Shown piece by piece: positions 36,111 through 62,700 of a stretch of DNA of 64,000 nt (positions are counted from its first letter, which is position 1; the number at the start of each line of letters is the position of its first letter). Position numbers and translations under genes: made by a program. Origin of the DNA: Candidatus Nanoarchaeia archaeon (GTDB taxonomy: Archaea; Nanobdellota; Nanobdellia; Woesearchaeales; WJIZ01). The DNA lies in contig JANQND010000030.1 of NCBI GenBank assembly GCA_028279765.1, positions 1 through 64,000 on the forward strand. Reading direction: 5' to 3'. The notes beneath the pieces are model-generated. The model did no database searches. It saw nothing but the letters and a program-made list of their open reading frames with translations, and was not told where the DNA came from.

Positions 36111-36212
36111 GGCAGCAACAATAGCGCAGACGAGCCGAGGGTTGGCTCCTTCGGAGTGGCTCGTAGGATTTTCTGCAGGAAAATCCGTCTGCTTGCTAAT
36201 GTTGTTGCTGCC
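36111..36212 (+). repeat. Palindromic intergenic element, copy A
   Basis: The outer arms GGCAGCAACAA/TTGTTGCTGCC (11 pairs), TAGC/GCTA and GCAGAC/GTCTGC enclose two hairpins. Hairpin 1 is CGAGCC/GGCTCG (36131-36163) with an inner CTCC-TTC-GGAG. Hairpin 2 is GGATTTTC-TGCAG-GAAAATCC (36166-36186). The 3' arm carries extra unpaired ATG and TT. It lies between convergent genes. Core 5' sequence CAACAATAGCGCAGAC and 3' CTGCTTGCTA recur in copies B and C. Confidence 0.9.
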
Positions 36213-36247
36213 ACTACCATTTAATTCCTAATTCCTTTTACAACAAG

Positions 36248-37069
36248 TTATCCAATCCTTTTCATCATCAAAAAAAACAAAATCCGAGAATAACTCAACA
36301 GAGGAAAGAGAACAAAAAACAAACTAATGGCAAAAGCAAACTCATTAAGTTGCAACAAGATAAAGCAAAGCAGAGCACCGCTGCCAAACACTAATACAAT
36401 CTTTCCATATACCAGCAACACAGAAAAAAACTCTCGAACACCGACACGAAAGCTATCCAAAAAAGAAGCAATAGCTCCTTTCTTCATAATCAGCACAACA
36501 CAAAGAGACCAAAAATAATTAATCAACACGATAAGCAATACAAACAGGAAGCTAATAATCTCATCACTAAATAAAGCAATAATCATGCGCGCATTAAGAG
36601 TAGACAAATACACCGTAAGCCAAAAGCAAAGTAAAATCAAAGCATAAAAAGCAACCGATATAATACTAAACCGAAGCAAATATTTCAGGCGTGAAACCTT
36701 CTTACTCACGATCCGTGCAGTTAAAGAAAATACCGGGCCGTTAAACGCAATAACAAGAACTAATACAACCCCTGCAAGCACCAGAAGCCATCCCAAAAGA
36801 TTCGAAAACAGCGCATAAAACTCAAGGTTAGCAGCAAGCGTTTTCATTGCCGCAGCCTGCGTTTGCAAATCAGCAGTGTCTGATGGGAGAACCGCAAGCA
36901 TCTGAGAGATGCGAAGAAGAAGCGGGAAGATGCGATCTTTCACAATCTCTAAGAAAGTAAAGATAAATCCTGTAAAGAAGCTCACATCTAGAAGATAACA
37001 AAAAAAAAACATCCATTTATGCTTCTTCACCAGCCTCCATGCCTTTATGTAATCAGAATAAAACTGCAT
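36248..37069 (-). CDS. Polytopic membrane protein ending the surface cassette
   Basis: The 273-residue protein has about six membrane helices. It opens MQFYSDYIKAWRLVKKHKWMFFFCYLLDVSFFTGFIF and ends with YSRILFFLMMKRIG. The plan and end pattern match the 240-residue protein at 44678-45400 (IDIASFTAMYF; CRFFLHDLFKKRG), so the two are probable paralogs. It begins 12 bases after the stop of the giant protein gene, with a GGGG ribosome site. It could be a channel, assembly factor or anchor for the secreted proteins; function unknown. Confidence 0.7.
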   Translation of the reverse strand: MQFYSDYIKAWRLVKKHKWMFFFCYLLDVSFFTGFIFTFLEIVKDRIFPLLLRISQMLAVLPSDTADLQTQAAAMKTLAANLEFYALFSNLLGWLLVLAGVVLVLVIAFNGPVFSLTARIVSKKVSRLKYLLRFSIISVAFYALILLCFWLTVYLSTLNARMIIALFSDEIISFLFVLLIVLINYFWSLCVVLIMKKGAIASFLDSFRVGVREFFSVLLVYGKIVLVFGSGALLCFILLQLNEFAFAISLFFVLFPLLSYSRILFFLMMKRIG

Positions 37070-37080
37070 AATTAATACCC

Positions 37081-40000
37081 CTAACTTGCAGCAGCTACAG
37101 CTCCTTCTTCGCACGTTACTATTGTTGAATTTGCACTATCTTCATTGCAGAATATCGCTTTTCCTGTTTGTGGCTTACAGAGATTAGCCCCACAAAGGCA
37201 AGAGCCAGTCACTTCATTATTTTTCGCGCAGGAATCAGGTTTTTTGCACAAATATTTATTTGGATTAGTGGGGTCAGCTGGATTACTAAAGCAATGTATA
37301 TTCTCTCCAGAAACAGGGTTACAAATCGCTCCGTCGCAGGAGCAGGAATCAACAACTTTATTATCAGGAGTACATGGAATCAATAGCGACTCACTCGGTC
37401 GCTGGCAGCGGGCAATGATTTCCACATCTCGCTGCTGAGGCTCTCCCTCATAGGTCGATAGTTGTCCTGATGGCTCCTCAGCGGTGGGGGACTTCTCATA
37501 CAGGGAGATTTCCATGCGCCATCGCTGCGGCTCGTCCGTACATTGACCACTACTAGCACTAACTCCCTTATAGGTCACGCGAATGGTGTCGTCCGTTGTT
37601 GGTTCCTCCCTTAATTCAATAAGATATGTCGCCTTGGTATCGTCATTAGCCGAGTCAAAAATATAGTATGCATTATTATAATTTCTAACCTGACCATCTG
37701 TCACAATGTCCACTCGCTCACTATTTGCTCCCTTATAGTAGAAGATGTTATAGCGCTGTGGACTCGTGAATTCAATATGCATATCATTGTGAGAAGGCCC
37801 GACACCCCTATCAGTAAGCCGTATTCTTTTCACAAGCCTTCCGGTAGCACTAATGCTTGGATTCGTTCTCCTGAAATCACTTTCCTGTATCCGATAGTTA
37901 GGCAGGTTGCTAAATTCATGAACACCATCTCCGTTCAGAGGATAATACTGTGAAGCATGCACTTCCACACCCTGTTGATTAAATAATTTCATGTGCAAAA
38001 ATTTCGTATATTCATTGATCTCCCTGCCTGCCTGAACTTCACTAGGTTGGCGCTGCGATAAGCGAACATCCACATTGACAGGCTCGTCTCCTGCATAATA
38101 CTCAGAGGAAACAGAGACAGGATCATTAAAGAAGCGCACATAGTTCGCCTCATCAAATCCAAGCTCGCAGCGGAACGCACCTTCTGCTGCATCCAGCTGG
38201 CAGAACGCAGGAGCGCTTCCTCCTTTCTCATTGATTCGGCACTCAACACTGCCCGATTTAGGAATATTCGTGGTCTCATACGTATCTGATGTGGTTTCCC
38301 AACTCAATATAGCCTTATCATAACGTACGTTCGAATCGCGCACATTTTGCAGAATCTCTTCTTCAATAGTAGCTCCACGTGCGGCCTGGCCTGTTCCAGG
38401 AGTAATCAACAGTGTCTGCTTGCCGTTGGGTCCAGCACAATCGCACTGCCCGGTCGGAGTATCGCAGCTATAGTCATCAGAGCAAACCAGTTCCAGCCAG
38501 TATCTTATCTGAGATCCTGCAACCATCCCCATTCCAATATGATAATTATATGTTGTTTTACCCTCAGGAACAGTTGTCGGATTAAACGAAACAAACCGCC
38601 GGGTGCAGGGATACACCGCTGCAACCGTCTCTACGTCAATAGAGACATCCTCTTCAAGCACCGCAGTCACCTCAAAATCCCAGGTTCCGGTAAAGGCCCA
38701 CAAGCAAGCAGAGTGAACCAGTTTTTTCTCTGCAAAGATCGCCCGATACACCGAAGACTCGCTGTACCTGCCGTTGATTCTAGAAGACACACTTCCTCCT
38801 GCAGAGGTAAGCGCGCCAAGGAAATTTCCTATGCCCGAGCCGGTATCACGCTTCTCTCCTGCACCGTATTTTTTCTGAAAGCATGAAATCAAGTCATACA
38901 CCAGATCACACACATACACCGACAGCACAGCCTGGCACATGCCTGCGCTGCCGTCTCCAGTATTAAGCACTGTTTGTAGACATACTTTAATTGCCTCCAG
39001 TACTCGTTTCCACAAATTCAGATACGACGTAATCCCCGGCAAACAACCGCATTGGAATGCACGAAGGATTCCTGAAGTAGGATCAACAATATAATCTTTA
39101 TCTACAACACCTAGCGCTTCCTGCAGTCGCAGGTACACTTCTTTTGCTTTCACGCTGCCTGAACCTGCCTTCTTAGGATCAATTGATTTAGCGTTAACAA
39201 CCCTATCATATTGCCTGACAAAATTATCTCTTGCATCATCATTGTATTTCTGAGAGGTTGGATCGATACTGGTCACATCAATTTCAAAAAGAGTGTTATC
39301 AGCAGGCTGAAAGACTCTCTCGGTAGCAATCTTTGAAGACTCGCCTCTTTCATATTCAAACTGAGCATTTTCTATTTCATTACCAACAAAACCAACTTCC
39401 GCATGATGAATATGAGCATTATTTTCAGATCGAGAACTTCGAGCAGATTTGGGGAGGAATCGGAACCACACCGAGCTTCCGCTACCTGCAATAAAAGCAT
39501 CCTGTGGACCACGCGAATAACTGTTCGGGATTTTCTGCAGAATTTCCGGGTTAGTAAACGAATCATAGGCAGGAATAATTGGCTGAGATGTTCCTCCATC
39601 CTCTGTGCAACTCAACCCGGCAACTTGTTCATACACCCGCCCAGCTCCATTGTAATGGCGATCTTCAGTCAAATCCAGCCCCTGGTTATCCATAGCAAGG
39701 AACTTGGATTCCTTGAGCTCATCAAAGAATAAGCAGGCAGAATTCCACTCCTGCATATATTCATAGCCGCAACATTCATTGTTCGGAATATGCAGATCAC
39801 CGCATTTATTCTCATCATCCTCTGATCCAACCAGTTCTTTTTGTTCCAGATAATCTTCATACGCCTTATACACTCCGGAATCCTCATCCCCATACAAAAT
39901 AGCCTGCTGGTAATTTTCTTTCCCATACGCACAGTCACTTACGATTTTGAAATCCGCATTCGCCTCAGCAACAGAAGACCCCTGGCTATTATCCCTTACA

Positions 40001-42549
40001 TATTTCTGAAACGTAGGAGCAGAAGGGCAGAAAATTCTATCACAGAGCATGTCCATGGTTTTGTGAAAATTATTCCGAGAGCGCACTGCATCCTCGCAGC
40101 TCTGGCACGAAGACCTCGCCTCATCATCATCGCTATATTGATTTTCGCATTGGCCCACCCGAGCAAAGTACGGATCCCATTCTCCCTCTTCACCAGAGCC
40201 TATTTTTCCAATAGTAGATGAAAATTCACAGGCATAACTCTCTTTAAAGGCCATGCCAAAATCAAGGAGAATAGACCCTGCGCATCCATAAAATAAGACC
40301 TGCTTAACCGTATTGAGGGGAGTAAGCAATGAATTAATAGCGTCAATAGTGGTGTTCAAAACGTCAATAGTGGATACCAGGAACTCTTCAGGGATTTGAT
40401 CAGTAGGAACTCGCCGATCTATTGCAATCTCCACATCCCAGCACTGGCGCTGGTTGCGCAGTTCGATCTCCTGCCTGCTTCGTGCAAGCCGTGGGTTAGA
40501 AGTAGAAATGCGTTGATCGTCTGTACGATAATAATTAAAGTCAATTTCCATCATTAAGGGGATGCGCACGCAGCCAAAACCAGGAACCTTGCAGTCATCA
40601 TTGATGCGATGATCGCTCAGCAGATTCTCCATGCGCAGCGTCGTGATATCCTCTTCCAGAGTATCATCTTCCAGTTCAGTCACGAAATCCCCTGAATCCA
40701 GTTTCTTAAGGGTAATAAGAACGTAACCCTTGTCTCGCTCAATGTTATCGATGTACTGCACGTCCTGCACAAAATCCAAGTCATATCTGTTCTTGTCACG
40801 CTCATTGAGCGGCACATCAGAGCTTACGGATACGTGAGAGATGCTGCCGTTTCGTACCGTCCCTCCCTGCCATTTGATATCTAAAACCGGAATTCCAATT
40901 TGTGCAAGGCCCTCAAGTGCAAGGCGGGGAGTAAGGATTTCTGGAGTAGGCTCGCCAAGCCTCACGCTGTACCACGATCCATAGCCACAGGTAGCTAGTG
41001 AAACAAACTCCGTAACAGGCTCAGAAGTAAGGCCCGATGAGGAACTCGCAGTCAAAGTAATTTCATTATCCCAGGAAGCACCAAAGCTCGAGTAATAGTT
41101 ACTTTCGGATCGCTGAGGATCATAATCCGTTTGCGTATCAAACTCTGATTCCACTTTTCGCTCAAGCTCGATAGGAATTTCAAATGATCCGTCTGCTTTT
41201 GCAAAATCGGTATAGCTTTTGTCATCATTGATTGTTACCTTCACCAGTATCTGCTGGTCTTCCTGCTTCGATACCTTTCCGCGAACAGTCACATCCAGAA
41301 TATATGCAGGAGTAAGATCGCCCAGATTATGTTCAAGAATTTGTGGAACATCAGTATCAAGAATGATCTCCTGTTTGGAAATAACAGAATTTCCTGCTTT
41401 ATCCGTTGCATTAATAGTAACCAGATTCTTTCCTTCTTCGAGCTGAACAGAGCGCGAAAATCTGCCCGTAATTCTCGTTTCTTCATAGGTTTCGTCTAAG
41501 GTGCAGTAATCCGTGAGCTCCTCAAACGTGTCAGTTAATTCAGCACCGGAAGAAGACGTAACCACCGTAAGTGCAGGAGATTTAGGGCCAATACGGCACT
41601 GCTCATCAAATGCAGCAATTTCATAAGCATAAGAAGTATTGCGGTTAAGAACTGCGTCAACAAATACCGTATCTGAGTAAGAAGTAAGCAGTTTTCCATC
41701 ACGATATATGAGATATCCTCGAATATTTTCTTCCTCTAAGGGATCCCATTGGAGTTCTGCAGAATTATCTTCCTGCTCCACTAAGTGTAAGCCATTTACC
41801 GCAGCAGGAACAGACGATTCAGTGCTGCCCGAAACAACAGAGACCGCAAGCGTAACCTCCTCGTTTACATCTCCTTCAATAACAATGGAATCATCCTGTG
41901 TATAGGCATCAAGAGGAGTGATATTCATGATTGGTGGTTGCAGGTCCAGTTCCACTGAGCGCTCCAGCGAACTCTGAAATCCTGCCTTATCAATCACCGC
42001 GATCCTGATCATATTCGACGGTTTACTGGTATCCATAGCAACATTGTTAAGTGCAAATACACCGCTTGAATCCGCAGTCACTCTTCTCTTTAATTCCTCT
42101 TCTACAAAAATACGCACATCAGAGAAAGGCTCAGTGGCACCTTCGATATCAAGCCGATTGCTGTTAAATGCCTCGGGAAGCACCACATCAATAGTTGGAG
42201 GTTCGGTATCAGTATCTGTGGTAAATGTTGAAACAGATCCCTGACTACACTCTCCCTGCGAATCACAGGACTGCGGCTGATAATAATAGGTAGTAGCGCT
42301 CTCCAAACCTGTGAGATTAACACTATGAGTACTTCTTTGCCCGGATGCCTGGGCTGAGCTTCCTAAAGACTGATCAGTACCATAAGAAACAAAAGAAGAT
42401 CCGGGAACATCTGTCTCCCACGTAACCGTTGCGGAGTATGGAGTTGTAGAAACCGCTGGACCAGATAAGGCAATCGAATAGGAGATCGGCATAGAGACCA
42501 CTAAGAGAACCAGCATAATCGATACTATTTTTGATCCCTTGTACTGCAT
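37081..42549 (-). CDS. Giant secreted Cys-rich surface protein with FN3/Ig-like N-terminus
   Basis: The 1822-residue protein has a signal peptide and a fibronectin III-like domain (about 30-110, TPYSATVTWETDVPGSSFVSYGT). Next come Ig-like repeats with PPTIDVVLPE starts, a second FN3 (SAELQWDPLEEENIRGYLIYRDG) and a long Cys-rich central and C-terminal part with many CxxC-like pairs. A module CxPGI-x16-CLQT...C-x8-C-x2-VY near 38895-39055 is shared with the 1051-residue protein of the same locus. The ATG at 42549 is 25 bases from a TTTAAAT box. It probably is an extracellular adhesin or structural component; nothing catalytic is seen. Confidence 0.8.
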   Translation of the reverse strand: MQYKGSKIVSIMLVLLVVSMPISYSIALSGPAVSTTPYSATVTWETDVPGSSFVSYGTDQSLGSSAQASGQRSTHSVNLTGLESATTYYYQPQSCDSQGECSQGSVSTFTTDTDTEPPTIDVVLPEAFNSNRLDIEGATEPFSDVRIFVEEELKRRVTADSSGVFALNNVAMDTSKPSNMIRIAVIDKAGFQSSLERSVELDLQPPIMNITPLDAYTQDDSIVIEGDVNEEVTLAVSVVSGSTESSVPAAVNGLHLVEQEDNSAELQWDPLEEENIRGYLIYRDGKLLTSYSDTVFVDAVLNRNTSYAYEIAAFDEQCRIGPKSPALTVVTSSSGAELTDTFEELTDYCTLDETYEETRITGRFSRSVQLEEGKNLVTINATDKAGNSVISKQEIILDTDVPQILEHNLGDLTPAYILDVTVRGKVSKQEDQQILVKVTINDDKSYTDFAKADGSFEIPIELERKVESEFDTQTDYDPQRSESNYYSSFGASWDNEITLTASSSSGLTSEPVTEFVSLATCGYGSWYSVRLGEPTPEILTPRLALEGLAQIGIPVLDIKWQGGTVRNGSISHVSVSSDVPLNERDKNRYDLDFVQDVQYIDNIERDKGYVLITLKKLDSGDFVTELEDDTLEEDITTLRMENLLSDHRINDDCKVPGFGCVRIPLMMEIDFNYYRTDDQRISTSNPRLARSRQEIELRNQRQCWDVEIAIDRRVPTDQIPEEFLVSTIDVLNTTIDAINSLLTPLNTVKQVLFYGCAGSILLDFGMAFKESYACEFSSTIGKIGSGEEGEWDPYFARVGQCENQYSDDDEARSSCQSCEDAVRSRNNFHKTMDMLCDRIFCPSAPTFQKYVRDNSQGSSVAEANADFKIVSDCAYGKENYQQAILYGDEDSGVYKAYEDYLEQKELVGSEDDENKCGDLHIPNNECCGYEYMQEWNSACLFFDELKESKFLAMDNQGLDLTEDRHYNGAGRVYEQVAGLSCTEDGGTSQPIIPAYDSFTNPEILQKIPNSYSRGPQDAFIAGSGSSVWFRFLPKSARSSRSENNAHIHHAEVGFVGNEIENAQFEYERGESSKIATERVFQPADNTLFEIDVTSIDPTSQKYNDDARDNFVRQYDRVVNAKSIDPKKAGSGSVKAKEVYLRLQEALGVVDKDYIVDPTSGILRAFQCGCLPGITSYLNLWKRVLEAIKVCLQTVLNTGDGSAGMCQAVLSVYVCDLVYDLISCFQKKYGAGEKRDTGSGIGNFLGALTSAGGSVSSRINGRYSESSVYRAIFAEKKLVHSACLWAFTGTWDFEVTAVLEEDVSIDVETVAAVYPCTRRFVSFNPTTVPEGKTTYNYHIGMGMVAGSQIRYWLELVCSDDYSCDTPTGQCDCAGPNGKQTLLITPGTGQAARGATIEEEILQNVRDSNVRYDKAILSWETTSDTYETTNIPKSGSVECRINEKGGSAPAFCQLDAAEGAFRCELGFDEANYVRFFNDPVSVSSEYYAGDEPVNVDVRLSQRQPSEVQAGREINEYTKFLHMKLFNQQGVEVHASQYYPLNGDGVHEFSNLPNYRIQESDFRRTNPSISATGRLVKRIRLTDRGVGPSHNDMHIEFTSPQRYNIFYYKGANSERVDIVTDGQVRNYNNAYYIFDSANDDTKATYLIELREEPTTDDTIRVTYKGVSASSGQCTDEPQRWRMEISLYEKSPTAEEPSGQLSTYEGEPQQRDVEIIARCQRPSESLLIPCTPDNKVVDSCSCDGAICNPVSGENIHCFSNPADPTNPNKYLCKKPDSCAKNNEVTGSCLCGANLCKPQTGKAIFCNEDSANSTIVTCEEGAVAAAS

Positions 42550-42569
42550 ATTCATTTTTTGTACTTCTG

Positions 42570-42578
42570 ATTTAAATG
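42570..42578 (-). promoter_or_regulatory. TATA-like box of the giant 1822-residue gene
   Basis: CATTTAAAT on the minus strand is centred 25 bases before the ATG at 42549. It gives this gene its own promoter inside the cassette, just downstream of palindromic copy B. Confidence 0.45.
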
Positions 42579-42606
42579 GTTTATCTTACCTATTAAGCTC
42601 ACAAAT

Positions 42607-42692
42607 TGAAAACAACAATAGCGCAATGGGCGAATACTTGCAGCCCAAGATTTTCGTAGAAAACCGGCTGCCTGCTATTATTGTTGTTTTCA
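42607..42692 (+). repeat. Palindromic intergenic element, copy B
   Basis: The outer arms TGAAAACAACAA/TTGTTGTTTTCA (12 pairs) and TAGC/GCTA enclose a TGGGC/GCCCA hairpin (42627-42647) and a TTTTC-GTA-GAAAA hairpin (42651-42663). The 5' core CAACAATAGCGCA and 3' core GGCTGCCTGCTATTATTGTTG match copies A and C, in the same strand orientation. It lies between two minus-strand genes of the surface cassette, upstream of the 1822-residue gene promoter. Confidence 0.9.
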
Positions 42693-42717
42693 TGGTGCTA
42701 TGTTAGTACTCCAATTA

Positions 42718-44703
42718 TTATTCAAAATGCGGCGCAATCTGATCATGATAATCTCCGGTCAAAACATAACTGACCATCTCAAGTTTCTCCTCCTTCGTAA
42801 AGGGCATGGGGATATAGCGAATCGCATGGAACACAACCTTCTCTGAATCAGCAACAGCAGCGCCATCGGCAAACCATTTTCCATTATATCCTCCGATGTA
42901 TTCATCATCCTGTGTAAGCACTATGGTAAGATCATAGGTTGCATCAGCCTCGATTAAGTCCAGAGTTCGCAGGTGTGAAGGAACATTCAGCGAAAGAGGA
43001 TAGACCTTATGCGCAGTATAATCAGGTCCAACTAACTGGATCGAAACATTCATTCCCTGTTCCAGCTGCTGGGCTTCTCCCAGTGATTCAGCAAGGCTAT
43101 TATATTCGTGAATCACTACCTCATAATCCATCTTCTTTAATCGAGTAAGCTCCAGGGTGAGTTCACTGCCGCTAAGTTGTTTTTTAGAAGGCAGATAGCC
43201 CTCTTTTTCTGCAGTGATGAAAGGATTTGCACAAGACGAAGGAAGCGCAGTGTACAGCCGATACGCTCCCGAATCCGGCTTGGTTTTTCCGAGAGGGCAA
43301 TAATACTTAAAGCACTCTAGGGAAAGATTAACATCATTGAGCTCAAGGTTCGAAAATCCGTCTTCTGAGCCGACAGCGCGGATGTCTACGAAATCCAGTC
43401 CTCTCTCTTCACAAAAGCCACGATCAAAATAGGTTGTGGTAAAGAGATCATACCCATAGTCTTGCTTGAATGGCTCATTATTTTTGATAGTAACCGGAAG
43501 GGCAAAGGAAAAGGTGTATCCCTTACCATCAAAGGATTTACTGTCTCTCAAACTAATACGCACTGGATAGTTCACATCATAGAGAAAATGAAAGATATTC
43601 ATGCAAAAAAAGGAAAACAGCTCTCGGTTTCCCGGCGCCAGCTTTGATCGCAATATCCCATTGTCATGAGGCTGAGCAGAAAGATCAATACCTACTGAAG
43701 GAAGAAATTCAATACCTGCACTGATACTCTCATCTTTTTCCAGTCCTGCATCCCAGAACATACGCAAGTACTCGTAAGCATCCTCTGGAACATGATCCGG
43801 GAAATTTCCCTCTGCAATATCATCCATCGTGTGCTCTTTGAGCTTCTCATATACTCGCTCGTTCTCTAGGAAGGGACTGTGCGCGGTGTTCTTGATACGA
43901 ATCCGTGGATAATTTGAGGTAAGCATCTGCTCAATCTCAGAGCGGACATCATCAATCGGCCATTCCAGCCTATTGCAAGTGAAGCGTACGTCAGTAAAAG
44001 GGACGTCTGGATTTGATGCCATCAAATCGATGGTGAAATTCTCAAGGAAAAGACCGCTGAGTTCTGCCTCCATCAACTCTTCAGCAGTAGAGAGCACCTT
44101 GCGAAGCCGCACAGGAATACGTGCCTGGTACTCTTCAATTACCGTATGCGTGCTATTCGTTTTTGCAGCAACACGGATAGGGAAATTCATAGATACCACT
44201 ATATCTTTCTGGTTAAACGCAGAGCTTACTTTTTTCTCTCCGAGCACCGTGATATCATACTGCTCAGAAAACGCCTCGAAGTTATTAAGGCACAGATCCA
44301 CCTGCTCTTCTACATAAGAAGACAATTCCCGCTGCGCAATACGCAGTGAAGGATTATAGCGCTGGCCTTTGTAGAACCAAAGAGGAATCTTGATAATGCC
44401 TATCCCATCAGGGTTAAGATACCGTGAAGGGTTGAATGCAATACTGGTTGGGATAGTAATAAATCCTCCCTGCTGGCCCATCAATCGAGCACCCCGCTCA
44501 GCGGTTTGTTCAATGCAGGCCTCTACATAGCGCTTCACCGGATCAATTTCCTGCGTATCGGTTTGTGGTTGCCGGTTAAGGACATTGGTTTTGAAGGAGA
44601 TTAAGAGAACTACTGAAAGCAGGACAATAAGTCCTAAAATCATAAAAACAGTAATCTGAGCTTTCCTCGAAATACTATCAACCCCTTTTTTTGAACAAAT
44701 CAT
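42718..44703 (-). CDS. Pilin-like anchored secreted protein, paralog of the 53073 gene
   Basis: The roughly 661-residue protein starts MICSKKGVDSISRKAQITVFMILGLIVLL: a short basic leader ending RKAQ followed by a hydrophobic helix, like archaeal class III (type IV pilin-type) signal sequences. The large extracellular part shares blocks with the protein at 53073-55151: VEACIEQTAERGARLMGQQGG, the PLWFY segment, YVEEQVDLCLNNF, and NYPVRISLRDSKSFDGKGYTFSFAL. The start overlaps the end of the upstream membrane-protein gene by 26 bases. The region between arms of the fold looks like Ig/carboxypeptidase-regulatory repeats. Possibly a pseudopilus or scaffold subunit. Confidence 0.75.
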   Translation of the reverse strand: MICSKKGVDSISRKAQITVFMILGLIVLLSVVLLISFKTNVLNRQPQTDTQEIDPVKRYVEACIEQTAERGARLMGQQGGFITIPTSIAFNPSRYLNPDGIGIIKIPLWFYKGQRYNPSLRIAQRELSSYVEEQVDLCLNNFEAFSEQYDITVLGEKKVSSAFNQKDIVVSMNFPIRVAAKTNSTHTVIEEYQARIPVRLRKVLSTAEELMEAELSGLFLENFTIDLMASNPDVPFTDVRFTCNRLEWPIDDVRSEIEQMLTSNYPRIRIKNTAHSPFLENERVYEKLKEHTMDDIAEGNFPDHVPEDAYEYLRMFWDAGLEKDESISAGIEFLPSVGIDLSAQPHDNGILRSKLAPGNRELFSFFCMNIFHFLYDVNYPVRISLRDSKSFDGKGYTFSFALPVTIKNNEPFKQDYGYDLFTTTYFDRGFCEERGLDFVDIRAVGSEDGFSNLELNDVNLSLECFKYYCPLGKTKPDSGAYRLYTALPSSCANPFITAEKEGYLPSKKQLSGSELTLELTRLKKMDYEVVIHEYNSLAESLGEAQQLEQGMNVSIQLVGPDYTAHKVYPLSLNVPSHLRTLDLIEADATYDLTIVLTQDDEYIGGYNGKWFADGAAVADSEKVVFHAIRYIPMPFTKEEKLEMVSYVLTGDYHDQIAPHFE

Positions 44704-45400
44704 GCAGGAAAAACCGGCAAAAAGCAAAGTAAAAAAAGATTATTACCAAGCTAATAACCCACCCAACAAGCGAGGCAGTAATGATATTTAAAACTGCGTA
44801 CAAAACAACGAATATCAGCAGCAAAATAACGTAAGCAATAAACAAATCATACCTGCTTGCCGCAACAGATAAAGCAGAAAGCCAGCAGGTGATGTTTTTT
44901 TTTTCTGCATATATCATAAAGAGCACTACGCTCGAATAGGTGAATAACATAACATAGCCCAATATCAGATAAGGGACAAGATTCTGCCTTACGGTGAAAA
45001 AAGCAAGAAACAGAGGGATGCCTCCAATGAGAAACCACACAAATCCCATCGGAATAGATTTTAAGAGAAACATCATTGATGGATTTTCTTTTTTTACCAG
45101 CGACCAAATAGCAGCGCGTGATGCAATCCAGATGCCCCATACGAGTACCAGTGCTATAACGATAAGAAAAATAAAATAAAAAAAATCAAACTGCATGGAA
45201 GAGGCAAGGGCATTGACCTGAGCCTCAGAGAGCTCAAACACAGAATCAGGAAGATCGATTGCGTCAATCTTATGATAGAAAAGGAACGTAAATAAACTGG
45301 CAACAAAATACATTGCCGTAAAACTTGCGATATCAATAGTTACACTAATTAAAAAAAATCGATCAAATACCATAGTCTTGAAAAGGCTCTTTTTTTTCAT
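44678..45400 (-). CDS. Polytopic membrane protein of the surface cassette
   Basis: The 240-residue protein has about six membrane helices, a Lys-rich start (MKKKSLFKTMVFDRFFLISVTIDIASFTAMYF) and a basic end CRFFLHDLFKKRG. It has the same size and helix plan as the last gene of the locus (36248-37069). Its ATG directly abuts the TAG stop of the 1379-residue gene, with a GAGAGGG ribosome site, and its end overlaps the next pilin-like gene. Its position between secreted genes suggests an assembly or retention role in the membrane, which is inference. Confidence 0.7.
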   Translation of the reverse strand: MKKKSLFKTMVFDRFFLISVTIDIASFTAMYFVASLFTFLFYHKIDAIDLPDSVFELSEAQVNALASSMQFDFFYFIFLIVIALVLVWGIWIASRAAIWSLVKKENPSMMFLLKSIPMGFVWFLIGGIPLFLAFFTVRQNLVPYLILGYVMLFTYSSVVLFMIYAEKKNITCWLSALSVAASRYDLFIAYVILLLIFVVLYAVLNIITASLVGWVISLVIIFFYFAFCRFFLHDLFKKRG

Positions 45401-49914: not shown

Positions 49915-49920
49915 AGTACT

Positions 49921-55151: not shown

Positions 55152-55303
55152 TTTAGCCCCCTCTGTATGATCTGCAGATCATACATTTTTTGTTCCATAA
55201 GCTCGCGTGCAAGCATGGATTTCTTCTTGCCCAGCTTCTTTGCAACTTCATTCAGAAGCCTATCAATTTCGCGAGAAACAGTAATTCGGATTTGTTTATT
55301 CAT
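55148..55303 (-). CDS. Ribbon-helix-helix (CopG/Arc-type) regulator heading the operon
   Basis: The 51-residue protein begins MNKQIRITVSREIDRLLNEVAKKLGKKKSMLARELMEQKM: a KQIRITVS beta strand for DNA contact, then two helices with the SxxxR spacing of ribbon-helix-helix repressors. It ends in an ATGA overlap with the pilin-like gene, so it is translated with the whole surface operon. RHH proteins usually repress their own promoter; two palindromic boxes (55320-55330 and 55389-55401) flank the TATA box. It could also be an orphan antitoxin, but no toxin gene follows. Confidence 0.85.
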   Translation of the reverse strand: MNKQIRITVSREIDRLLNEVAKKLGKKKSMLARELMEQKMYDLQIIQRGLK

Positions 55304-55319
55304 TTGTCCTTAAAAGAGT

Positions 55320-55330
55320 ACTTTCAAAGT
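55320..55330. promoter_or_regulatory. Palindromic box 1, candidate RHH operator
   Basis: ACTTTCAAAGT is a perfect 11-base palindrome (odd centre) directly downstream of the TATA box and upstream of the regulator start codon, where a bound repressor would block transcription initiation. Confidence 0.5.
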
Positions 55331-55332
55331 CA

Positions 55333-55343
55333 TTATATATAAA
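55333..55343 (-). promoter_or_regulatory. TATA box of the surface operon
   Basis: TTTATATATAA on the minus strand is centred 35 bases upstream of the RHH start codon, giving an expected leader of about eight bases with an AAGGA ribosome site. Palindromic boxes lie on both sides. Confidence 0.6.
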
Positions 55344-55388
55344 TATTCTGTTTTTCATCATTAAAATAGAGGAAATAGGCAAATAATA

Positions 55389-55401
55389 TACTTTAAAAGT
55401 A
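55389..55401. promoter_or_regulatory. Palindromic box 2, candidate RHH operator
   Basis: TACTTTAAAAGTA is a perfect 13-base palindrome sharing the ACTTT/AAAGT halves of box 1, about 70 bases further upstream in the divergent intergenic region. A third palindrome, CCTTAATTAAGG, lies at 55457-55468. Confidence 0.45.
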
Positions 55402-55536
55402 CTAAATTAAAGTCAACTAAAGCATAAATAAAGACAGAGAAAAAACTTAAAAAAGCCTTAATTAAGGATAAATAAAGGATAAAGTAAGTATAGACGAGAA
55501 ATGGCTCCTTATAGATGAGCAGCAGCGAAAGAAAGA

Positions 55537-55545
55537 TTTATATTA
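55537..55545 (+). promoter_or_regulatory. TATA box of the 55566 gene
   Basis: TTTATATTA is centred 25 bases before the ATG at 55566 and supports that start over the ATG at 55515. Confidence 0.5.
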
Positions 55546-55565
55546 TCTGCACACACAGTGAAGGT

Positions 55566-56762
55566 ATGCCTGATCTCAAGGAATACATTAAAGACCTGCA
55601 AAAGCAAGGGTATCCCCTGCAATCAATCAAAGGAATCCTTCTACGATATGGATATCAGGAGCAAGTAGTTGATCAGACAATCTATAATCTCGATCACAAA
55701 CCGCAGTTCCACTTAACCCCTCAAGTAATATTAGCAGCACTCGGCGTTATCCTAATCCTTTCCGGCTCGCTCTATTTTCTTATCAAGCCACCACAGCAAA
55801 TACCTCAAAAGCTCCTCGATGTTTCTATTGAAAATATCCCACTCAAGATAAAGCCGGGAGAGGCGCTTGAAGCCGATGTGCTTTTCACAAACATGGGATC
55901 CCGGCAACGCTATGATATATTCACAAAGTATGAGATATTTGATACAGGCTCTCGTCGCCTCACCTTTAAGAGCGAGACACTTGCGCTTGAAGACCTAAAA
56001 AATAAGATAACACAAATAATCATCCCGGAAAATGCAAAGGCAGGAAGTTACGTGCTTGTTGTTACTGCACGCTATCAGGCAGAAATAGCAAAAGCAGAGC
56101 AGCCATTCGAAATAGTTTCAGAGCAGCAGCAGATTCAGCAGTCAACCTGCAGCGATGGCATACAAAACCAGGGCGAAGAAAAGACAGACTGCGGCGGACC
56201 CTGTCCTGCATGCTCAGCATGCATTGAAGAGTGCGATGATAATGACCCCGCAACAGAAGATATCTGCAATGCCCAGACGGGATTCTCCTGTGTTCACAAA
56301 AGAATTGCGGTCTGCGGCGACAAAATCTGTGAATCACCGGAAACAGATATCACCTGTCCAAGTGACTGCACTGCCCTTCAGGCGGTTTCTGAGGGCAATG
56401 TGTGGGACAAGCTTGATGAAATAAAACAAATGGCAAATACCCTCCCTCAGCAAGCGCTAAGAGAATGTGGCAACATTGAACCCTCTTTCAAAGATCAATG
56501 CCTGCAACAAGTAGGCACCGTGAGTCAGAATGCAGACATCTGCAATGATATTGAGGATGCAATGCGTAAGGATCGATGTTATACAGAGATCGCAAAAACA
56601 ACGGAAAAAGTAGTTCTCTGTGAGCAGGTAGCAGAAAAAAGAAGAGATTCCTGCTATATGAATTTAGCACTCAAAGAGCATTTCGAAGTATGCGGAAAAA
56701 TCAATAATCCTTATCAGAAAAGATCATGCGAGACGCTGCGAGATGCAAATCAATTTGGGTAA
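55566..56762 (+). CDS. Membrane-anchored Cys-rich protein
   Basis: The 398-residue protein starts MPDLKEYIKDLQKQGYPLQSIKGILLRYGYQEQVVDQTI, a small cytoplasmic helical domain found at the N-terminus of many DPANN membrane proteins. A membrane helix (about 56-76), a CARDB-like beta domain (about 90-190) and two Cys-rich parts follow: CSDGIQNQGEEKTDCGGPCPAC with CGDKICESPETDITCPSDC, then C-terminal repeats with Cys spaced about every 15-20 residues (KDQCLQQV, RKDRCYTEI, RRDSCYMNL). It faces the divergent surface operon and may share its regulation. Function unknown. Confidence 0.75.
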   Translation: MPDLKEYIKDLQKQGYPLQSIKGILLRYGYQEQVVDQTIYNLDHKPQFHLTPQVILAALGVILILSGSLYFLIKPPQQIPQKLLDVSIENIPLKIKPGEALEADVLFTNMGSRQRYDIFTKYEIFDTGSRRLTFKSETLALEDLKNKITQIIIPENAKAGSYVLVVTARYQAEIAKAEQPFEIVSEQQQIQQSTCSDGIQNQGEEKTDCGGPCPACSACIEECDDNDPATEDICNAQTGFSCVHKRIAVCGDKICESPETDITCPSDCTALQAVSEGNVWDKLDEIKQMANTLPQQALRECGNIEPSFKDQCLQQVGTVSQNADICNDIEDAMRKDRCYTEIAKTTEKVVLCEQVAEKRRDSCYMNLALKEHFEVCGKINNPYQKRSCETLRDANQFG

Positions 56763-56773
56763 TAGTAAAGAAG

Positions 56774-58861
56774 TTATCGTACGCGGGCACCATCGCCCAC
56801 TTTCTCAGCAGAAACAGTTTCTCCACTTGCAGTAAGAACCTGATCACTAACCATTGGCTTACCATCCTTAACAACAATTTTCGTTTTCAGGAATTCTTCA
56901 AAGCTGATTTGTGCAGAGTTATTCTCATAGCCTCCAATTCCAACTGAAGTTCCTGCTTCCGCATCAGTAGTAAGCAAGCCGAGCTTCTCTCCGCCATCTG
57001 CTGCGAGAAGCATTCCCTTGCTCTCTATTCCGCGAAGCTTAGCAGGCTTCAGGTTAGAAACAACAATGATCTTTTTTCCTTTCAGCTCCTCAAAAGAGTA
57101 ATGCTCTTTAATTCCAGCAACAAGCTGCCTTTTCTCGTCGCCAAGATCAATCTGCAAAACGAGCAGCTTATCTGCTTTTGGGTGTTCTGCAGCATCAAGA
57201 ATAGTGGCCACCTTCAGGTTCAAGGGAAAAGTTTTCTTCTCTTCAAGCTGCATCTTCTCAAAAAGAGTTGAGGGAACACCAATGCGATGCTTCAGGAGGC
57301 TAAAATTAATATCTTCCCAGCGAAGGTTTGGCTGGTCAATTTGCTGGCGCAGGCGATGAGCAAAATCAGGCAGTATCGGCTCTAAAACGATCGAGAGAAT
57401 TTTAACCAGATTGACACAGCTGCCAAGCACACGCTGCGCGCGCTCCTTTTCTGTTTTAATCAGTTTCCAGGGCTCATTATCCTGAAAGTACTTATTTCCC
57501 AGGCTGCTGATATGAAGAATCTTTTGAACCACTCCCTTCAAATTGACTTTCTGATAATCGTCCTTAATCTCTTCGCATTGCTTAATGATTTCTCCGAACA
57601 GGGTTTCATCCTCTTCAATACCGTCAAACGAAGAGTCAAAATGCTTCTCTAAAAAGGACAGCACGCGATAGCAAAAATTGCCGATATTTGCAACCAGCTC
57701 ATTATTTACGACATCCTGAAAATCTTTGAAATCCAGGTCAATGTCTGACATTTTCTTGCTCAGGGCCCTAGCATAGTAAAACCGTAGATATTCAGGATTA
57801 TAGGATTTCAAAAAGTCCTTAGCCGTGTAAAACGTTCCCCTGCTCTTGGACATCTTCTCACCATTCACCGTCAGAAATCCATGCACAACAATATCAGTAG
57901 GAAGATTAAACCCTGCCTCCATTAACATTGCTGGCCAGAACAGGAAATGAAAATAGATAATATCCTTACCAATAAAATGAATAATTTGTGATTCAGGGTT
58001 TTTCCAGTAATCCTTCTCTGCATCAAGATTATGTTGTTTGCAATAATTCTGCGTTGATGCAATATAGCCTACCGGAGCGTCCAGCCACACATAATAATAC
58101 TTATCCTCTTCGCTTGGAATCTTAAAACCGAAATAAGGGCCATCCCTGCTGATATCCCAGTCCTGCAAGCCTTCCTTGATCCAGTTCTTCACATAGTTCA
58201 CCATTTCAGGTTGCAGGTTCTTATTGGAGAGCAGCCATTTCTCAAGCTTATCTGAGAGTGCGCTGAGTTTGAAAAAATAATGAGAAGATGATTTTCGAAT
58301 AGGATTCTCTCCTGAGAGTGTTGAGTACGGATTAACCAAATCTACCGGCTTATACGTAGCATTGCAGATCTCGCACACATCACCATACTGATCTTTTGCA
58401 CCGCACTTAGGGCACTCGCCCTTCACATAACGATCCGGCAGGAAGCGCTTTTCTTTCTCATCATAAAAGTTCTCCACATCCTTTTGATAGATCAGGCCTT
58501 TATCGTTGAGTACATGAAAAATCTGATCTGAGAACTGTTTATTTTCTTCGGAATTAGTAGAATAGTAGGAATCAAAGTGAATATGAAATGCTTTGAAATC
58601 CTCCAGGTGCTCCTTATGCACCTGCTCAATCAGCTCCTCTGGGGTGATACCCAGCTCCTCTGCCTTAATCTGAATAGGAGTGCCATGCGTATCATCAGCG
58701 CAGCAATAGATCGCATCTTCGCCAATAAGTTTGAGAAATCGTACAAAGATATCTGTCTGAATATATTCCACTAAGTGTCCCACATGTATCGATCCGTTCG
58801 CATACGGAAGCGCAGAGGTTACCACAATTCGCTGAGGATTTTTCGTTTCGAAGGCAATCAC
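56774..58861 (-). CDS. metG: Methionyl-tRNA synthetase
   Basis: The 695-residue class I enzyme has the HIGH motif as HVGH at 26-29, an inserted zinc knuckle with CPKCGAKDQYGDVCEIC (about 150-170), the KMSKS motif as EKMSKSRGTF near 340, the anticodon-binding helical domain, and a C-terminal EMAP/Trbp111-like tRNA-binding OB fold (LKVATILDAAEHPKADKLLVLQIDLGDEKRQLVAGI). It charges tRNA-Met. The start is a GTG about 27 bases after a TATA box (CTTTTATAAAC), hence leaderless. Confidence 0.98.
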   Translation of the reverse strand: MIAFETKNPQRIVVTSALPYANGSIHVGHLVEYIQTDIFVRFLKLIGEDAIYCCADDTHGTPIQIKAEELGITPEELIEQVHKEHLEDFKAFHIHFDSYYSTNSEENKQFSDQIFHVLNDKGLIYQKDVENFYDEKEKRFLPDRYVKGECPKCGAKDQYGDVCEICNATYKPVDLVNPYSTLSGENPIRKSSSHYFFKLSALSDKLEKWLLSNKNLQPEMVNYVKNWIKEGLQDWDISRDGPYFGFKIPSEEDKYYYVWLDAPVGYIASTQNYCKQHNLDAEKDYWKNPESQIIHFIGKDIIYFHFLFWPAMLMEAGFNLPTDIVVHGFLTVNGEKMSKSRGTFYTAKDFLKSYNPEYLRFYYARALSKKMSDIDLDFKDFQDVVNNELVANIGNFCYRVLSFLEKHFDSSFDGIEEDETLFGEIIKQCEEIKDDYQKVNLKGVVQKILHISSLGNKYFQDNEPWKLIKTEKERAQRVLGSCVNLVKILSIVLEPILPDFAHRLRQQIDQPNLRWEDINFSLLKHRIGVPSTLFEKMQLEEKKTFPLNLKVATILDAAEHPKADKLLVLQIDLGDEKRQLVAGIKEHYSFEELKGKKIIVVSNLKPAKLRGIESKGMLLAADGGEKLGLLTTDAEAGTSVGIGGYENNSAQISFEEFLKTKIVVKDGKPMVSDQVLTASGETVSAEKVGDGARVR

Positions 58862-58946
58862 CTAAACAAAGAATGGAGAAAGTGTTTATAAAAGTTTATA
58901 ATGGATATACATAAATAAGTGTCAAATTTTAAACTAAATAATCGAA

Positions 58947-60359
58947 TTAGGTGCCTTTTTGAATGGAGAGATGATATTTACTTTCATGTACACTGAAATC
59001 TTTAGGGACACTTCCCTCAGAGATGGAAGCAGAAAGAAGTTCATTATAGTCATCTCTTCTCACTGTTAAATTAAGTATGTTTCTCCTATCAATAGTCATG
59101 CCAGGATAAAGTTCTTTGACTTCATCGCCAAGGAGTTGGAGCATTGCATCTGGTATAAGCTTATTTGCAATTTTACCTTGAAGCATTCCTGAAACATACT
59201 GCATGCGAATAACATCCTCTCCAGTATGCTCCTTGATGTATTTAGTGTCTTTTTCTAGAACAGTATCAAATCCCAGCTGTTGTGCAGCGTACTCTAGGAG
59301 CTTAAAATTGACAGGAGAAGAAATCTGTCCAGCAAAAATAGAGTAAGCCTCCAATGGTTTCTCAAGTGAGTCAAAACCATAGTCAAAAATATCTACTTTC
59401 ACCTTCTTTTTTTGACGAATATTCCACAGAAAATCAATTGCTTCTAAAGGGATACTCACTGCTACTGGATCAGCCGGGTCCATTCCATCAATCTCAGCTA
59501 ATTGACTTTGATAGAGTTGCAAAATAGGGGAAGCGAATTCCTTGAATGGTCCGGAAGCTCTTTGCCAATAAGTTCGAAAAAAATAGGGTTGTAGATCCTC
59601 CTGAACAAATTGCTTTTCTGCCACCACAAGAGAAGCCAAAAATGAGGGGTAAACATCGTTCAGTTTTTCCCATTGGTTAGGGTCACTAAAATAGGACATG
59701 ATTTGTGAGGAAGTATAGTCCCGTGCTCCCTCGTTTGACAATAGAAGATCAGTTTCTTTAGTAAACTTTCCCATATTCAACCTTCTCTTTCCGACTTTGC
59801 CTTTACTTGGAAAATCACCCTCTTTCATCGCAAGGGTAACAGTCAGGTTATATGGCTTACCTTCATGCATAGTAAAGAAATCAGTAAATGTATCGTCAAA
59901 TAATTCAACAACAACTACCTCCAAAGGGTCCTCTGTTACTTTTGCTGGGAATTCAGAAAGAGAGTTTCGTTGAAAATCAATGTCGTAAGGCTCAATGTCC
60001 TGCTTGTGCAATATAAATGATGAATCAGAAAAATCATGGCAAACATAATGTGGCTTCTTTCCTAATTCCTGTGCATGGTCAAGAAAAGCAGTAGCAAAAG
60101 CGAAATTTCCAGGCCCTATTTCATGAACTATCTCAGAAATGCCTTCTTTAGAATGAGATGCCGCTTGCGCCCTTGCAAGCATAGGTTCTTGACCCAATGT
60201 TCCCAATAATGTCAAAGGAGATTCCTCCATAGTATAGAAAAGAGAGTTTACTTTAGATTGTAGAATTGAAAGAGGAATGGAGATATCAGTCTTTACCCAT
60301 TTCTGATTATATCGGGATGGTAAAAATAGTCCTCTATGCTTAGTATATGATTCATCCAT
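58947..60359 (-). CDS. MidA/NDUFAF7-like SAM methyltransferase-fold protein
   Basis: The 470-residue protein carries IVHEIGPGNFAFATAFLDHA (about 77-96), a motif I with the E-GPG pattern of MidA-family methyltransferases, then HYVCHDFSDSSFILHKQ and VVVVELFDDTFTDFF, corresponding to the acidic strand 2 and the vhELFD motif of the family. KVDIFDYGF follows later. MidA homologs methylate Arg on complex I subunits in mitochondria and proteins of unknown identity in bacteria; complex I is not in evidence here. The C-terminal half is unlike known members, so the family call is tentative. Confidence 0.6.
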   Translation of the reverse strand: MDESYTKHRGLFLPSRYNQKWVKTDISIPLSILQSKVNSLFYTMEESPLTLLGTLGQEPMLARAQAASHSKEGISEIVHEIGPGNFAFATAFLDHAQELGKKPHYVCHDFSDSSFILHKQDIEPYDIDFQRNSLSEFPAKVTEDPLEVVVVELFDDTFTDFFTMHEGKPYNLTVTLAMKEGDFPSKGKVGKRRLNMGKFTKETDLLLSNEGARDYTSSQIMSYFSDPNQWEKLNDVYPSFLASLVVAEKQFVQEDLQPYFFRTYWQRASGPFKEFASPILQLYQSQLAEIDGMDPADPVAVSIPLEAIDFLWNIRQKKKVKVDIFDYGFDSLEKPLEAYSIFAGQISSPVNFKLLEYAAQQLGFDTVLEKDTKYIKEHTGEDVIRMQYVSGMLQGKIANKLIPDAMLQLLGDEVKELYPGMTIDRRNILNLTVRRDDYNELLSASISEGSVPKDFSVHESKYHLSIQKGT

Positions 60360-60416
60360 ACATAGGAAATCACAGATATACTTTTAAGATTTTCCTATTT
60401 TACTACTCAAAAGAAA

Positions 60417-60818
60417 CTACTTCTTCGGCTCTTTCATCTTCTTCGTAATCGGAATCTTCTCATTGCAGTCATTACATTGAAAAACATATGCATCCACACC
60501 CTTGAACTTTTTCCGTTTGTAGGGCGTGGTTGTCTCTCCACTTTTTCCACAATGAGGACAGGTATACTGCACGTTCATACTCAAAGTTGGTTCAAACTCC
60601 TCCTTTGGGACCGAATAATCACAAGAAGGACACACATATTCTGAAGACCGGGTCTTAACCTTTCCCGTTTTACTATCCACTGGCTTTCCTATTTTAGCCT
60701 TGCCGCAGGATGGGCAATCAGGCCTGAAAACCCAGGCAACAACTCTTCCATTATTATCTAACGTTCTTCTGCTAAAATAGAAGCATTCATCCATTGAATC
60801 TGGCATTGTTATGGTCAT
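60417..60818 (-). CDS. Small zinc-ribbon protein
   Basis: The 133-residue protein has four CxxC pairs: CPSCGKAKIG, CPSCDYSVP, CPHCGKSGE and CNDCNEKIP, enough for two zinc ribbons separated by a basic linker. Its N-terminus (ECFYFSRRTLDNNGRVVAWVFRPDCPSC) is a conserved beta part. Such proteins are common in archaeal translation, tRNA or nucleic-acid contexts, but no specific role is assured. A GGTGA ribosome site precedes the ATG. Confidence 0.7.
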   Translation of the reverse strand: MTITMPDSMDECFYFSRRTLDNNGRVVAWVFRPDCPSCGKAKIGKPVDSKTGKVKTRSSEYVCPSCDYSVPKEEFEPTLSMNVQYTCPHCGKSGETTTPYKRKKFKGVDAYVFQCNDCNEKIPITKKMKEPKK

Positions 60819-60864
60819 TCATTTCACCAATTTTTATTTTAAAGGGAGTAGTATTAAAGGTTTA

Positions 60865-61728
60865 TTATTTTGATTGGTATATCAGTGTTCTTATTTGGTC
60901 TATGCGCCTCATTATTTCTTCATCAAACACCATAGGTGCTCCATCAAGTTGTTGTTTAAGTGGATCCCCAAAGGAAAAGTTTTTTAGGATATCAGAAGTC
61001 CAGCCGGGATAGGCAACAGAATGAGAGAATTTGTTTCTAGTATCCCAAAATTGCCATGCGTATCTGTTTGTCGTTTTAGTTTTTAAGATTTCTTCTTGAT
61101 CTTGCGCCGTTATAATATTACTTCCCTGATTGGATTCTTCACTTAGTGTGACTGCACCCTTCTCGTAAATAGATACTGCGTTTATATTAAAGAGAAAATG
61201 AACTCTTGGTTCTGAATGTAAGTTAAGATATTTAACTAATTCTGCCATTCCACTCCCAATATTAGACTCCTTGTCAATAATTGGTTCCTCTTTATTACGA
61301 GACATTCTCTGGTTAGGATCATAAATCATTTTAAAATTGTGTTCAAACAATTCACGCAGTTCCCCCACCATCCTTTCTTGTCCCAGATTTGTTTTTGCCA
61401 GTTTTATCAATGTTTGTCCTATTAAGCTCCTATAGATTTCCGTTTTGTCCTTCTTATACTGGTACGTTTCTTTATCATACTGCATCCAAACATGGCTCTC
61501 ATCAAGAGGGAAATGCAGAAGTGGGATCTCCCAATCTCCACTAATCTCTTCTGCCTTATCAAAAAGCTCATTAAAGGCACCGTTTGCATCATCTCCATAC
61601 TTTTTTAGCAGGAGTGGGCGAGAATAATGTTCTTGGCTAGTAACGGAGGCATACAATTGATCTGCTAATTTTCCCAGATTATCTCTATCTATCTCCCCAG
61701 CGCTAGAAAGCAAGGTCATATCGTTCAT
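60865..61728 (-). CDS. Protein of unknown function
   Basis: The 287-residue soluble protein has no signal peptide or membrane helix and no recognised motif. It is mixed alpha/beta with an Asp/Asn/Gln-rich middle (MSRNKEEPIIDKESNIGSGM) and ends in a helix EEIMRRIDQIRTLIYQSK. Its ATG overlaps the stop of the PLP-fold gene by four bases, so the two are cotranslated and may act in the same pathway. Confidence 0.6.
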   Translation of the reverse strand: MNDMTLLSSAGEIDRDNLGKLADQLYASVTSQEHYSRPLLLKKYGDDANGAFNELFDKAEEISGDWEIPLLHFPLDESHVWMQYDKETYQYKKDKTEIYRSLIGQTLIKLAKTNLGQERMVGELRELFEHNFKMIYDPNQRMSRNKEEPIIDKESNIGSGMAELVKYLNLHSEPRVHFLFNINAVSIYEKGAVTLSEESNQGSNIITAQDQEEILKTKTTNRYAWQFWDTRNKFSHSVAYPGWTSDILKNFSFGDPLKQQLDGAPMVFDEEIMRRIDQIRTLIYQSK

Positions 61729-62549
61729 AAAGAAGGAGAATCAGTTATCCTTTTTAACCGTTTCACTTCAATGCTAATCGCATTTCTATTGACACGAATA
61801 TATCGCGGGCACTCAGTGTAAGGAAAAGAATTGCGCTCGCAATACTTTATAATCCTTTCCCTTTGCACATCATCAGAAAACCCAACCACTACATTAATCC
61901 CCTTCTTATCTGAATGAATAATCTCAAACATGGACAAGTCTTTTTTTATCTTCTCATGCTGCTGCTCAAAAAAACGCAGTTTCTCCTGCAGCATCCCTAA
62001 TTGCTTATCTAACGATCCCATCTTATGCTTATCAAAAACCAGATTATCCAGCATGGATCGATCAAAAGAAAGCTCATCAAAAGCAAGAAATCCTCCATAA
62101 TGCAGATTGACCGGCTTATCTTCGCCAAATGATCCTATAACGATATCGCCAATCTTTGCGATTTCAGATCCGATGCTTCCTGATGCATCATTAATAAGTA
62201 AAGCACCTTTCTGTTTAGTCATCGCATACAACAGTCCCATCGGCTGCTCAGCAAAATAACCGGATAAGGAATTAATCAGCAAAACAGATTGATCATCTAA
62301 ATGCCGTCCCAGCTCATTCGGCTCAATAATCCCATCATCTGTTTTAAGCTTCTCCAGGCTCATTCCTAAGCGTTCGGGAAACTGCAGGTAGGTAATCCAG
62401 CCGCCCTGATCCTGCACAATAACTTTCCGCTTACCTAATGCCTTAGCTATTTTCAGGGCAGTTTGTATGGATACATTCCCCCGTTGGGTCAGATAAATAT
62501 TTTTCTTGAGGGTATATCGTTTCAAGTATTGTATAGCATTATTCTCCAT
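61725..62549 (-). CDS. PLP-dependent aminotransferase-fold protein (DegT/Cys-desulfurase-like)
   Basis: The roughly 274-residue protein is shorter than the usual 370-400. It shows the fold-type I core: a QTALKIAKALG start, VIVQDQGGWITYLQF, GALLINDASGSIGSE (the Asp that contacts the PLP ring nitrogen), and DIVIGSFGEDKPVNLHYGGFLAF, where the Lys of EDKPVNLHYGG is at the position expected for the cofactor Lys. The C-terminal small domain is reduced. Whether it is active is uncertain. It is cotranslated with the 60865 gene; the spacer upstream holds palindromic copy C. Confidence 0.65.
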   Translation of the reverse strand: MENNAIQYLKRYTLKKNIYLTQRGNVSIQTALKIAKALGKRKVIVQDQGGWITYLQFPERLGMSLEKLKTDDGIIEPNELGRHLDDQSVLLINSLSGYFAEQPMGLLYAMTKQKGALLINDASGSIGSEIAKIGDIVIGSFGEDKPVNLHYGGFLAFDELSFDRSMLDNLVFDKHKMGSLDKQLGMLQEKLRFFEQQHEKIKKDLSMFEIIHSDKKGINVVVGFSDDVQRERIIKYCERNSFPYTECPRYIRVNRNAISIEVKRLKRITDSPSL

Positions 62550-62610
62550 GCAAAAAATCACTCAGACAAAATTTAAAAAGCTTGTGAAAGTGCAAACAAT
62601 AAAGCAAGAG

Positions 62611-62700
62611 AGCAACAACAATCGCGCAGACGAACTTAGTCTCTAAGCTCGAGATTTTGCCTAGAGCAAAATCGCTCTGCCTGCTATTATTGTTGTTGCT
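62611..62700 (+). repeat. Palindromic intergenic element, copy C
   Basis: The arms AGCAACAACAAT/ATTGTTGTTGCT (12 pairs) and GCAGA/TCTGC enclose hairpin 1 (62631-62651, CTTAG-TCT-CTAAG extended by CGA/TCG) and hairpin 2 GATTTTGC-CTAGA-GCAAAATC (62653-62673). The core CAACAATCGCGCAGACGA and 3' CTCTGCCTGCTATTATTGTTG match copies A and B in orientation. It lies in a divergent spacer, and its last bases run into the TATA box of the downstream methyltransferase gene. Confidence 0.9.

Follow-up and report, generated by a model that had tools for sequence, protein, structure and literature searches.

A candidate mobile foldback element of Woesearchaeota with compensatory change in its stems

Three copies of a foldback element in one window

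The window (the whole stretch of DNA that was analysed, 64,000 nt of contig JANQND010000030.1) belongs to a 1.5-Mb Woesearchaeota genome, here called the own genome or G000. Three of its spacers carry a palindromic element that folds back on itself, each time on the plus strand (Table 1). A preliminary description had placed three copies at these sites in a single orientation, which we confirm, now with exact limits for the paired arms, and the motifs that it had given for arms and hairpins proved correct on direct reading of the three spacers. The arms are longer than it had stated (GGCAGCAAC/GTTGCTGCC, GAAAACAAC/GTTGTTTTC and AGCAACAAC/GTTGTTGCT), and their outermost letters vary among the three copies yet stay complementary. 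Folded as DNA, copies 1, 2 and 3 reach z-scores of -6.3, -3.5 and -4.4, each beating 200 of 200 dinucleotide-preserving shuffles; the RNA folds of all three likewise beat 200 of 200 dinucleotide shuffles. For hairpin 1 of copy 2, the minimum-energy fold of the single sequence differs from the hairpin obtained by comparison. The window also holds two tRNA genes that were identified by Rfam and missed by ARAGORN with the bacterial code; being 111 and 123 nt long, they are probably intron-containing archaeal tRNAs.

Table 1. Positions of the foldback copies, their inner hairpins and the two tRNA genes in the window.
Feature	Position	Strand	Description	Basis
Foldback element copy 1	36111..36212	+	type II hairpin 1: GAGCC-GAGGGTTGG-CTCCTTCGGAG-TGGCTC	sequence, fold, models R1 and R2
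Copy 1 inner hairpin 1	36131..36163	+		fold
Copy 1 inner hairpin 2	36166..36186	+	GGATTTT..AAAATCC	fold
Foldback element copy 2	42608..42691	+	type I	sequence, models
Copy 2 inner hairpin 1	42627..42647	+	TGGGC..GCCCA	comparison with other copies
Copy 2 inner hairpin 2	42649..42665	+	GATTTTC gta GAAAACC, one mismatch	sequence and fold
Foldback element copy 3	62611..62700	+	type I	sequence, fold, models
Copy 3 inner hairpin 1	62631..62651	+		fold
Copy 3 inner hairpin 2	62653..62673	+	GATTTTGC..GCAAAATC	fold
tRNA gene	20687..20797		111 nt	Rfam
tRNA gene	22803..22925		123 nt	Rfam

Structure of the element

The folded element is T-like. Its outer stem measures about 12 bp, more in some copies, and on the 3′ strand it is interrupted by a bulge of a fixed 3 nt and, further inward, by one of 1–2 nt; beyond it lies a three-way junction from which two inner hairpins branch. 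The 5′ half consists, in order, of the outer arm NNNAACAACAAT, the stem GGC, the inner stem GCAGAC and hairpin 1. Next come a short linker, AG or TAG, and the A/T-rich hairpin 2, and the 3′ half closes the structure with GTCTGC, a C or CT bulge, GCC, the 3-nt bulge and ATTGTTGTTNNN. Hairpin 1 is of two kinds, either simple (GAGCTTAGTCTCTAAGCTC) or containing GAGGGTTGG-CTCCTTCGGAG.

Some copies hold additional two-hairpin modules, within hairpin 1 or ahead of the closure of the inner stem. The module types are CATG-hairpin-GGATCC-hairpin-GGATG and TCAGA-hairpin-GAGCATGCTC-hairpin, and they sit at set places in the element, so that these copies branch further; they occur in the own genome (L058, L063, L064, L065, L129, L130 and L018) and in genome G005 (L029, L044 and L128). 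Fragments of the 5′ part are also found immediately upstream of complete copies (at 1475–1500 in L020, near 2115 in L057 and near 957 on the minus strand in L131), an arrangement that could come from insertion of one copy into another or from replacement of one by another.

When exact pairing of the GGC stem is demanded and any offset from 0 to 6 is allowed, the bulge on the 3′ side comes out at 3 nt for 93 of 115 distinct copies, and at least 17 different triplets occupy it; the C/CT bulge is present in most copies. The fixed size and the free letters of the 3-nt bulge point to recognition by shape. A kink-turn was considered for this bulge and rejected by eye, no tandem G.A pairs lying beside it.

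Template switching at replication forks can make arms complementary one copy at a time, and the palindromes might have been passively perfected in this way, without any selection for shape. This process would, however, erase bulges, so that their retention argues against arms perfected by template switching alone. It also leaves the build shared across genomes and the appearance of new copies unexplained, and we judge it very improbable.

Compensatory change in the stems

In the alignment of the own-genome copies 94.1% of the cells pair and 31 of 33 pairs are changed on both sides; among relatives 94.4% of the cells pair, and all 33 pairs are changed on both sides. The covariation score is 0.488 in the own genome, against 0.193 for shuffled and at most 0.118 for slid controls, and 0.485 among relatives, against 0.148 and at most 0.113. 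Both alignments had been fitted to the model, and for this reason the outer arms were examined separately in ungapped form. Of their 12 pairs, most then score above every one, or almost every one, of 2000 shuffles, and the covariation also holds within the own genome alone and within genome G021 alone. The clearest compensated arm pairs are AAAAATAATATTGG/CCAATAATATTATTTTT, AATACTACTACTGG/CCAATAGTAGTAGTATT and AAATCCAGCCATGG/CCATGGATGGCTGGATTT. All stems covary, the outermost arms included, which bears out the earlier statement that stems are kept while the letters of the hairpins differ; the check for covariation in arms and hairpins that had been proposed with it gave values far above the shuffled and slid controls. 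In the ungapped outer arms there are 16 G.T against 10 A.C combinations (p = 0.33), and the case for one particular strand being the one that folds is weak.

Size and distribution of the family

A covariance model built from the three window copies (R1) recovers 32 own-genome places with E≤1e-5, and a second model built from 110 matches (R2) adds seven, so that the union of both comprises 39 distinct places at this threshold. With at least four further copies that carry nested hairpin modules and were found in fetched loci, the own genome has about 45 places in total. Among 98 other genomes of the order, 17 also have copies, in a patchy distribution (18 of 99 with the own genome), and the richest three besides the own genome give 36, 24 and 16 matches. 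The preliminary description had proposed to look for further copies in the genome and its relatives with such a model, and many were found. A wider draw of 371 genomes gave matches in 39, with per-genome counts that are lower bounds, 11 candidates per genome having been scored.

An exact two-arm pattern run over GTDB contigs retrieved 22 stretches, of which 21 are labelled Woesearchaeota or Nanoarchaeota; the remaining one lies on a 4-kb contig of a Thioploca MAG and is a probable case of mis-binning. The same pattern had no match in IMG/VR, and BLAST of one copy against phages and against plasmids gave none either. We found no description of this element in Woesearchaeota or DPANN in the open-licence literature. 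The curated covariance models of Rfam do not match it. The earlier remark that no known family name fits still stands.

Genomic context and mobility

The genes on either side of a copy may be convergent, divergent or tandem, and copies occur in both orientations, with no orientation bias (23 co-directional with and 24 opposed to the neighbouring genes among relatives). The flanking genes are mostly unrelated across copies, as had been noticed for the window. For 88 of 124 copies the most similar copy belongs to the same genome, where 22 would be expected, and pairs of copies that are 92–97% identical have flanks that are mostly no more alike than random.

Two comparisons between congeners revealed sites that have the element in one species and lack it in the other. 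The copy in L029 of G005 is missing at the orthologous spacer of contig C23 in G003, where the aligned flanks meet; the extra block between the aligned flanks is about 195 nt long for an element of 143 nt. Likewise, the copy in L213 of G245 is absent from G203, in which the flanks join at 2698/2699 of L214 read in reverse; the element here has 85 nt and the extra block about 120 nt. ATGAAT stands on both sides of this second block. In both cases the extra block exceeds the palindrome, so that these sites do not settle where the moved unit ends: more than the palindrome may have moved, or divergence of the spacers may account for the excess. Target-site duplications were sought at fixed offsets as well as at all positions within 40 nt, and none was found. 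Palindromes, dispersed family and covariation are matters of direct observation, and the mobility of the element is well supported.

Could the fold be that of an RNA? A structured RNA family (mRNA-stabilising, processing or small RNA) that spread by duplication and was kept at each place by selection on RNA folding would also be expected to show strong compensatory change. The element does fold as RNA, and over all pairs G.U outnumbers A.C (37 vs 15 and 112 vs 46), although the model itself favours such an excess. Against this explanation stand the absence of orientation bias, the unrelated neighbours, the lack of the element in most relatives and of a match in Rfam, and the finding that no positional TATA-like or T-tract consensus, as of an own promoter or terminator, exists over all copies. 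We therefore regard a structured RNA as rather unlikely, and the new non-coding RNA of the preliminary description is not supported as the main reading. An RNA-level role of some copies is possible and would not account for the spread. Flanks with A-tracts and T-tracts occur in only 9 of 27 copies from genomes other than G000, G021, G009 and G065; left A-tracts and right T-tracts extend the palindrome in L027, L030, L033, L036, L043, L049, L105, L106 and L107, which is the build of a two-way terminator or else reflects a target preference for such sites.

Candidate enzymes and comparison with known elements

What could move the element? One possible answer is a Y1 transposase of the IS200/IS605 type, or another known cell-encoded transposase, acting on a classical MITE or a REP/REPIN repeat. 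REPINs are REP doublets that form a hairpin; they are palindromic and intergenic, show compensatory changes in their hairpins, and both a clover fold and mobilisation by the RAYT transposase have been proposed for them (PMC3116915). The present element resembles them in being a short, intergenic, non-autonomous palindrome with a hairpin or clover fold in single-stranded DNA and with compensatory changes, as well as in its genome-specific subfamilies and its random spread in extragenic space; the missing target-site duplication is also as in Y1 elements. However, the ends of REPINs are strongly conserved REP sequences, whereas here the outermost arms vary with compensation. REPs also have a GTAG tag and a tied RAYT. 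In the element no such tag marks the boundary: just 4 of 130 copies have GTAG close to their 5′ boundary (it is found inside type II copies, between the hairpins). The Y1 (IS200/RAYT) family PF01797 has no match in G000, G009 and G065, which in that search are three of the four most copy-rich genomes. PF01797 is present in G021. Reverse transcriptases are absent from G000, G009 and G065 as well.

With classical MITEs the element has in common that it is short, non-coding and dispersed and bears terminal inverted repeats; as for the differences, neither a target-site duplication nor a parent transposon with the same ends was found. With the arm pattern, about 20 extra sites were read in four genomes, which are incomplete MAGs, and no long copy with a gene between the arms was seen: what this recovered was more copies, short or with nested modules, together with chance hits inside genes. 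Movement by one of these known transposases is, in our opinion, quite unlikely, and the element, although closest to REPINs in its logic, lacks their defining partner. What remains of the earlier proposal of a MITE/REP-like element or a new non-coding RNA is a dispersed structured mobile element (about 45 copies, unrelated flanks, near-identical copies at unrelated sites, empty orthologous sites); it does not qualify as a MITE in the strict sense and is REP-like in its logic only.

ERIC, bcr1, YPAL and other bacterial stem-loop repeats are also imperfect palindromes, of about 100–170 nt, with tens to hundreds of copies and a conserved secondary structure (PMC2267715). Compared by description, they are bacterial and defined by sequence, whereas the element is Woesearchaeal and has two inner hairpins, fixed bulges and nested modules. 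Since the palindromic CGTC repeats likewise have no known transposase (PMC3733652), an orphan palindrome is not unprecedented.

Another explanation is that the element is an attC-like folded site of an integron-type tyrosine recombinase, dispersed as single sites. The attC sites of integrons (for archaeal integrons, PMC9668308) similarly conserve shape over sequence and have a long stem with fixed extrahelical bases and a variable terminal structure. Each of the eight copy-rich genomes searched has Xer/IntI-like tyrosine recombinases that score below threshold, with a weak signal in G009; one candidate is at 532–1326 of contig C27 in G000. The four that were checked each contain PF00589 and a SAM-like N-terminal domain. 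In L213 of G245, 33 nt separate the element (2508–2592) from an Xer-like tyrosine recombinase gene downstream of it (2625–3425). Nevertheless, the R″ (RYYYAAC) and R′ (GTTRRRY) boxes occur together in 0 of 130 copies, there are no cassette arrays, and the integron integrase model TIGR02249 has no match over the cut-off in the eight genomes. The adjacency itself was rejected as evidence of a partnership because it concerns one of about 12 recombinase loci examined, and a relative of this recombinase in the sister species G203 has no element at that site. An attC-like site appears improbable to us.

Discussion

The reading that we prefer, with a probability of roughly 0.55, is that of an undescribed non-autonomous mobile foldback element of Woesearchaeota, probably moved as a folded single strand by an enzyme acting in trans. 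The mobile form would be this folded strand or an extruded cruciform, and the putative enzyme would read its shape rather than its letters. If only those copies that still fold were copied onward, selection would favour compensatory change, and also the bulges, as marks of strand and ends. The moving enzyme might be a tyrosine recombinase. In a more specific and tentative form, which we consider doubtful, the element would be a shape-coded mobile element of DPANN archaea: folded strand and bulges would be the signal, the sequence would be almost free to drift, and the enzyme would be neither a Y1 transposase nor a reverse transcriptase, possibly an Xer-like tyrosine recombinase working on folded DNA outside integrons.

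Were the element indeed mobile in the way that we prefer, it would be an intergenic repeat whose ends and interior alike are free to drift under a preserved fold, a step beyond REPINs, whose ends are conserved. Such an element would also offer a direct route to a shape-reading recombinase in DPANN archaea, in whose small genomes mobile elements are poorly described. The family is also a rich natural source of covariation data on how a recognition site in folded DNA (or RNA) is shaped.

A second, larger foldback family was observed in the own genome, with one member of 298 nt on contig C20 near 20125 (L203) and another of 231 nt on contig C23 near 2644 (L204). Their ends (GGCTCTGTTGAAA/TTTCARCAGAGCC) presumably recall the inverted repeats of the IS6 family, and the direct repeat TCTTAATAC flanks L203. 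Both members have a GAGGGTTGGCTCT..CCTTCGGAG hairpin and a nested CATGGAAATC..CATGA module, as in type II elements.
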